Source: Natronolimnohabitans innermongolicus JCM 12255 (lineage in GTDB: Archaea; Halobacteriota; Halobacteria; Halobacteriales; Natrialbaceae). Taken from it: DNA of 59,869 nucleotides. The position numbers and the translations under genes are program-made. Shown piece after piece: positions 58,975 through 59,869 of the stretch. Location: positions 20,510-80,378 of the forward strand of contig NZ_AOHZ01000017.1 in assembly GCF_000337215.1 (NCBI RefSeq). The letters run 5' to 3'. Position 1 is the stretch's first letter, and each line of letters opens with the position of its first letter. Under the pieces are notes generated by a model, which saw only the letters and a list, made by a program, of their open reading frames with translations, was not told where the DNA came from and did no database searches.

Positions 58975-59703
58975 ATGGAGAACCTCCGGGACCAGTTCGA
59001 CAGCGTCGCCGAGCGACGCCAGCTCCTCGAAGTTCACACGGACCGCGACCGAATTGCCTCGGAACTCGAACAGCAATTCTCGACGCGGAACGTTCGCATC
59101 GTCCGCAAGCCGGCGTTGTCGGTAAAGAACCCCGACTTCGTGATCGTCCGGGACGCTGATCGCGAGTTTCGCGCTGCGGTCGGGGTCGAGCATCTCGAGG
59201 CGATGCTCTCGCCTGAGATCCACCCCCCGTGGCGAATCGGCAACGGGGACGACGATGCCGCCGAGCGGTTTCGATTCCTCGAGAACACGATTTTCACTTC
59301 CTACGATCGACGGCAACTGCTGGCCGTCAGCCGCGAAATCGAGGAGCGAGCCTGGCGAACCGGCTCGGGAGCGATGTTCATCGGCTTTCAGAACACGGCA
59401 GCTTTCAGGACGCAGCTCCCGGTCTACGAACGGCTCGTTCGGGAGTGCGATCTGACCGTAACGGTTTTCGTCGAAAACGAATGGCGCGGGGAGACAGTCG
59501 ACGGAATCGACGTGGTGTCCGATGCGGCGAGTGAGATCGGCGCGTTCTGGTTCGTGTTGTTCGACGGCGGTGGAAGCGATCTGAAGAAGTGCGGACTGCT
59601 CGCAGAAGAGCGCGAAGAGGGCCAGTATTACGGATTCTGGACGGACGAACCCGAGCGAGTGGACGAGATGATCGCGTATCTCAAGTCGTTGAGAGGCTTC
59701 TGA
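58975..59703 (+). CDS. DICT sensory-domain protein
   Basis: 242 residues from ATG 58975 (MENLRDQFDSV). The DICT (sensory) fold is suggested by RRQLLEVHTDRDRIASELEQQFS, FVIVRDADREFRAAVG and SGAMFIGFQNTAAFRTQLPVYERLVREC. DICT domains are found in sensory proteins, often linked to cyclic-nucleotide or light signalling. No extra catalytic domain is present. Its partner is probably the DUF7344 protein just upstream. Confidence 0.75.
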   Translation: MENLRDQFDSVAERRQLLEVHTDRDRIASELEQQFSTRNVRIVRKPALSVKNPDFVIVRDADREFRAAVGVEHLEAMLSPEIHPPWRIGNGDDDAAERFRFLENTIFTSYDRRQLLAVSREIEERAWRTGSGAMFIGFQNTAAFRTQLPVYERLVRECDLTVTVFVENEWRGETVDGIDVVSDAASEIGAFWFVLFDGGGSDLKKCGLLAEEREEGQYYGFWTDEPERVDEMIAYLKSLRGF

Positions 59704-59778: not shown

Positions 59779-59868
59779 GCTAGTACCCTCCCAAGCGTCG
59801 ACTGATGGGGCGAATCGGACCACACCGCATGATTCGCCCCATCAGTTCAGGCTTGGGAAGCCACTAGC
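59779..59868. repeat. 90-nt near-perfect palindrome at the window edge
   Basis: Arm 59779-59816 and arm 59831-59868 are 38 nt each and match as inverted repeats at 32 of 38 positions without gaps, around a 14-nt centre. The inner 16 positions are perfect, including CTGATGGGGCGAATC against GATTCGCCCCATCAG. Flanking blocks are CCCAAGC/GCTTGGG and GCTAGT/ACTAGC. It could be abutting ends of a mobile element, a MITE, or a large transcribed hairpin. Sequence beyond 59869 is needed. Confidence 0.7.
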
Positions 59869-59869
59869 A

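Follow-up and report, generated by a model that had tools for sequence, protein, structure and literature searches.

A CTAG-flanked palindrome of haloarchaeal genomes, probably a small mobile element, is enriched at stop codons

What kind of sequence is a long palindrome that closes a stretch of contig: an artefact of assembly, a structured RNA, or an element that moves? The question was raised by the end of a 59,869-nt stretch of DNA from Natronolimnohabitans innermongolicus JCM 12255 (the whole stretch is called the window here), where the initial annotation had described a 90-nt palindrome with 38-nt arms. The palindrome is present exactly so: its arms (59,779–59,816 and 59,831–59,868) match at 32 of 38 positions (84% complementary) and are separated by 14 nt (59,817–59,830). 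For the stretch of 88 nt from 59,780 to 59,867, both DNA and RNA folds give z scores of -7.4 to -8.6 against 200 dinucleotide shuffles, none of which (0/200) is as stable on either strand. A search of Rfam with the palindrome gave no match above the gathering score, only sub-threshold animal microRNA hairpins. The location after a DICT-domain gene was also described correctly: this copy lies 76 nt downstream of the TGA of the gene, hence away from any stop codon, and a PQQ-type beta-propeller gene lies beyond it on its other side. The features to which we refer below are as follows.

58,975–59,703, plus strand: DICT-domain gene (context, outside the element; Pfam PF10069, 30.9 bits against a cut-off of 23.8), with the start taken from the sequence
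59,780–59,867, minus strand (the canonical strand of the element): element, 88 bp including the CTAG at each end, with homologous full-length copies
59,780–59,783, no strand: CTAG, first end (target or duplicated site); CTAG stands at both ends in 172 of 237 distinct element-plus-flank sequences
59,864–59,867, no strand: CTAG, other end, on the same basis of 172 of 237
59,831–59,842, minus strand: apical-stem half, canonical 26–37, with partner 59,805–59,816 and compensatory changes
59,805–59,816, minus strand: apical-stem half, canonical 52–63, with compensatory changes
59,817–59,830, no strand: variable loop, canonical 38–51; pairing of 38–44 with 45–51 is unconserved in 53 copies
59,847–59,850, minus strand: conserved mismatch block, canonical 18–21, facing 59,797–59,800
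59,797–59,800, minus strand: opposite side of the conserved mismatch block, canonical 68–71, from pair counts in 53 copies

The functional limits of the element are the CTAG at 59,780–59,783 and the CTAG at 59,864–59,867, and in arrays it repeats with a period of 84 bp. Its canonical strand, the minus strand of the window, reads CTAGTGGC...GGTACTAG, and model coordinates 1–88 correspond to G000:C17:80289-80376.

A palindrome at the edge of a sequence could be a by-product of the way in which the sequence was put together, and the flanking sequence, which the initial annotation had proposed to obtain, shows that two assembled pieces were indeed joined at the window edge. A single N follows directly after position 59,869 in the contig, and the 89 nt on its left are identical to the 89 nt on its right; a second one-N join of this kind, with an overlap of 90 nt, occurs at contig C4. 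Because the 89 nt are identical on both sides, the apparent second copy past the N is the same copy assembled twice. Two overlapping contig ends are set side by side here, which duplicated the copy and did not create the palindrome. Against an assembly origin of the palindrome itself, full copies are found inside N-free contigs of this and other genomes, including single-contig chromosomes; we consider such an origin extremely improbable and reject it, the artefact holding solely for the apparent second copy. The tandem copies on contig C61 are genuine, with no N between them and with sequences that differ. Thus, the palindrome is real, recurs elsewhere and is conserved, although the edge at which it was noticed is an assembly join.

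A genome-wide search, another step suggested at the outset, identified a dispersed repeat. In the 4.59-Mb genome of the organism, blastn found 12 full-length places, or 10 once two scaffold duplicates were collapsed, and the genome carries at least 10 copies. Across a set of 61 genomes (this one, 36 relatives from the same family and 24 from other families in the order), blastn found the element in 14, all of its own family. With a covariance model, 29 of the 293 genomes searched from the order proved to carry it, of which 26 belong to the same family and three to two other families; copy numbers from this model are floors, with at most 15 candidates scored per genome. A pattern scan of the GTDB collection returned 50 stretches, all from Natrialbaceae going by record titles: Natrarchaeobius, Natrialba swarupiae, Salinadaptatus, Natronolimnohabitans, Natronobiforma, Halostagnicola, Halobiforma and Natronorubrum, which we take to be members of that family, and one MAG. 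Some relatives hold far more copies. One (G001) has about 50, and in another (G014, one contig of 3,788,356 bp) about 0.73 Mb examined gave 128 hits from loci some of which overlap slightly: 66 of subfamily A, 26 of B, 20 of C (about 110 bp) and 16 partial. Six of 72,556 plasmid records have the element, all six haloarchaeal; no viral or phage copy was found in IMG/VR by exact pattern or in 50,697 phage records by blastn.

Two observations on the subfamilies can be added. Copies of C (L103, L107, L109, L110, L112, L113, L116, L117 and L119) resemble the others in their ends but differ in their interior, where additional ACTAGT motifs occur, and B-type copies with CTAG ends occur outside the home family, in a genome of another family of the order (L335 and L336 of G210).

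Comparison of 53 non-redundant copies shows a hairpin of unequal parts. Its base is conserved in sequence, and so are its mismatches: among the 53 copies a pair is formed at 7/82 in five, at 18/71 in two, and at 20/69 and 21/68 in none, with pair 19/70 inside the block forming. The mismatched blocks had been attributed to drift, a reading contradicted by their retention in nearly all copies. The apical stem (26–37 with 52–63) varies in sequence yet keeps its pairing, and the loop is unconstrained. A fold with relatives, as had been recommended, yielded clear covariation of the apical stem: in an alignment of 40 of the 53 copies (13 were omitted by eye as more divergent or odd-ended), changes on both sides occur in 17 of 33 pairs, and 113 cells covary against 35.5 in shuffles, a level that 0 of 500 shuffles reached and that lies far above slid controls. 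All 53 copies agree, the apical stem being 87% paired (0/2000 shuffles). Repair in which one arm serves as the template for the other can produce such covariation too, with no selection involved, though it would not keep the mismatches.

Information on how the element comes to lie where it does is provided by its flanks. CTNAG occurs on both sides in seven of the 237 element-plus-flank sequences, on the left only in none, on the right only in four and on neither side in 226 (Fisher 4e-11), and the central base is equal on both sides in five of the seven double cases, two of which are supplied by a single tandem (L040) with CTGAG at all three of its junctions. Independent ends owned by the element would not covary in this way, which argues that the target site is duplicated; the four right ends with CTNAG, against none on the left, are a counter-observation. 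Going by the flanking sequences, the element targets CTAG and only occasionally CTNAG, and the targeted site flanks it left and right. CTAG is uncommon in genomes of this kind, and in the window it is depleted (nine seen against 44 expected from trinucleotides). Neighbours in arrays share exactly 4 nt at 54 of 57 junctions, in all orientations (20/14/12/11). Further, in G014, subfamily A is often solitary (30 arrays), and B and C are nearly always joined to A, in many orders, as expected if B and C insert into the CTAG ends of A.

Other insertions were seen at or beside copies. An IS630-like insertion of 1056 bp with duplicated TA splits the CTAG of a palindrome copy in G063 relative to G094; it is a two-frame insertion at L159 1576-2660 (compared with L158 of G094), with ends TAGTAGGCG / TAGTAACCG. 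A second family of imperfect palindromes of about 90 bp, of the type CTATAGTAGCCACTG...CAGTGGCTACTATAG, abuts element copies at L005, L006 and L003 (about 1415-1500), and this second palindrome, with CTATAG ends, adjoins copies in contigs C18, C6 and C4 of the organism's own genome; it looks like an IS630-type MITE. G063 and G094 differ at a further place, where G094 (C15:220279-224902; L162, L153) has about 4.5 kb between two copies and G063 (L156) has a single copy, which points either to a composite insertion or to loss of the stretch when copies recombined.

A further bias concerns genes. Of 136 clusters of copies, 65 have a stop codon no more than 6 nt away and none falls in a called gene, whereas the 459 other CTAG sites of the same loci include 176 inside genes and 34 at stops (Fisher 2e-24 for stop enrichment against all 459, and 5e-15 against the 283 outside genes). 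The stops involved number 71, since a cluster may adjoin two genes at their stops (e.g., L154), and 58 of the 71 are TAG. These figures come from loci chosen by BLAST or by pattern, which are not a random sample, with genes called by a simple codon-usage caller made for this analysis; clusters near locus ends, duplicates and clusters with N within 30 nt, the window copy among them, are excluded, and a variant with a 650-nt margin kept 142 clusters and dropped 22 as too short.

Orthologous genes that lack the element terminate at the same codon. The empty orthologous stop contains CTAG in the comparisons of G005 with L172, G005 with L011 and G075 with L007, and in several other relatives it is TGA or TAA. 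Such sites either had CTAG formerly or reflect a looser rule, and they count against a strict one. Empty sites come from other genera, with flanks about 75–90% identical, and the exact number of duplicated bases is therefore something that we infer; the search found no strain-level pair differing only by the element. No empty site was obtained for the window copy, whose left flank is conserved to the end of the DICT gene and whose right flank matches elsewhere.

An association with gene ends could also mark a terminator or stability hairpin in RNA, maintained at 3' ends by the cell and spread by selection, not mobility. The median distance of clusters to gene 3' ends, 19.5 nt against 145 nt for 5' ends, suits such a structure, as do the conserved pairing and the excess of G-U over A-C on the canonical strand (36 against 15 apical cells). 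However, the element shows no bias of orientation toward genes (33 vs. 38, p 0.64), so that a DNA hairpin fits better than an RNA made from one strand. Further, 17 of the 136 clusters lie between divergent genes, arrays share CTAG, and the distribution is patchy (29 of 293 genomes of the order), all of which makes an RNA maintained in this way very unlikely. A structured RNA under selection had been one suggestion of the initial annotation; its conserved base pairing is borne out, and the hairpin is probably read as DNA. The other suggestion, two inverted element ends, was right in pointing to a dispersed and probably mobile repeat, but the palindrome is a complete small element and not two ends of a larger one.

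IS630- and IS5-type MITEs duplicate TA or TNA, and the element is like them in being short, in its inverted repeats and in a duplication consistent with TA or TNA, whose exact length is inferred. It could thus be a classical MITE moved by an IS630- or IS5-like DDE transposase, the hairpin being a by-product of long terminal inverted repeats. The pattern of site duplication, the IS630-like element inserted into the palindrome's CTAG (G063 vs. G094) and the palindrome of about 90 bp with IS630-like CTATAG ends beside copies in the organism's own genome all speak for this. No parent with matching ends was found in the loci examined, however. The flanks of PF01609 transposase loci (best 30 of 59 matches) and of 30 ISH3 transposase loci show other ends and none the element's; G001 has no convergent end pair at 0.6-3 kb, the pattern search there giving whole elements or lone ends only; and in about 0.73 Mb of G014 no lone ends flank a gene. 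We therefore reject a parent insertion sequence among the PF01609 and ISH3 transposases examined. Unlike MITEs, moreover, the whole element is one hairpin with a covarying stem and fixed mismatches. The covarying apical stem is unexplained by plain end recognition, and IS630 gives CTATAG here where the element gives CTAG. A MITE of this kind is nevertheless quite possible, if doubtful.

REPs are linked to HUH RAYT transposases, and IS200/REP movement leaves no target duplication. A second possibility is that the element is REP-like and that an HUH transposase of Y1 or RAYT type moves it in the form of a single-stranded hairpin, a reading that suits the long imperfect hairpin, its fixed mismatches and compensatory changes, and the occurrence of clusters. 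The Y1_Tnp distribution does not suit it. G001 has no Y1_Tnp match despite about 50 copies, G014 has three matches only, partial or stop-broken, and among 30 Y1_Tnp loci scanned a copy is adjacent in one only, with a weak match of 19 bits (L087). The duplication of CTNAG is likewise unlike IS200/REP movement. On these two grounds we reject such movement as the leading model and judge the HUH reading unlikely, although the location at 3' ends and TAG stops is as in GTAG REPs, as far as these are covered in the available text of PMC3733652.

The element can be compared with several families of small repeats. ERIC/IRU and Yersinia palindromic sequences are imperfect intergenic palindromes of 100–170 bp in enterobacteria; the element is likewise an intergenic imperfect palindrome, and taxa and sequences differ. 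Bacterial REPs measure 20–40 bp with a GTAG or CGTC tag at one end, and GTAG REPs and BIMEs are high-copy, clustered extragenic palindromes near gene 3' ends whose termini often supply a TAG stop (PMC3733652, available text). By that account, the element is like GTAG REPs in being extragenic (0/136 in genes) and near 3' ends (65/136 at stops), and unlike them in its length of 88 bp, in having CTAG at each end, in duplicating its site, in lacking an HUH link and in being archaeal. The SMR-A and SMR-B repeats of Haloquadratum walsbyi are non-coding, 80–110 bp long and present in tens of copies, with terminal inverted repeats unrelated to known transposons; they insert into other mobile elements without target duplications, SMR-A targeting palindromes of IS605-type elements, and the movement of transposase-less small repeats in haloarchaea was termed enigmatic in 2011 (PMC3119063, available text). 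Compared by that description only, the element resembles SMRs in being short, non-coding, too small for a transposase, bounded by terminal inverted repeats, present in tens of copies and haloarchaeal; it differs in duplicating CT(N)AG (CTNAG on both sides in seven of 11) and in targeting CTAG, stop codons and its own ends. A literature search, covering some sources by partial text, found no description of a CTAG-flanked palindrome, which is not proof of absence. We call the element a REP/SMR/MITE-like non-autonomous mobile palindrome and file it simply under mobile palindromic repeats, since it has no REP tag or HUH link, shows a target duplication, which SMRs lack, and as a MITE would be without a known parent.

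Taken as sequence, the element is shown to be a long hairpin with up to more than 100 copies per genome, the copies nesting in one another's CTAG ends and so building mosaic arrays. The palindrome of the window is probably a non-coding, non-autonomous mobile palindrome of haloarchaea, dispersed at CT(N)AG and enriched at stop codons. Movement would depend on an enzyme supplied in trans that recognises the hairpin by its conserved basal part and the mismatches fixed there; a copy would go in through staggered cleavage at C^T(N)A^G, with duplication of TA or TNA (equivalently, CTAG or CTNAG). Both ends would rebuild CTAG, and a TAG stop would remain a stop after insertion, for genes on either strand, as the site is palindromic. 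Because both ends rebuild CTAG and the stop survives, CTAGs at stop codons would be safe harbours and gene interiors would not. Any putative effect on neighbouring genes, as a 3' hairpin acting in termination, would be secondary.

More tentatively, and with considerable doubt, we suggest a new archaeal mode of mobilisation, in which a trans-acting enzyme would read the folded DNA hairpin (fixed mismatches, covarying stem), insert it by a staggered cut at CT(N)AG with duplication and home to TAG stops. If true, it would join hairpin recognition as in REPs to duplication of the DDE kind, and a tetranucleotide strongly avoided in haloarchaea would serve as a safe harbour. Because the family offers many nearly identical copies and a defined target, together with clean variants of the site and empty sites at orthologous positions, the mobiliser can be searched for and tested. 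In the annotation of Natrialbaceae genomes, the element accounts for many strong palindromes, for tandem hairpins and for some of the assembly breaks. For the biology of these archaea, it would represent a simple route to a harmless parasite, which aims at a rare palindrome often retained as a stop codon and restores that stop on both strands.
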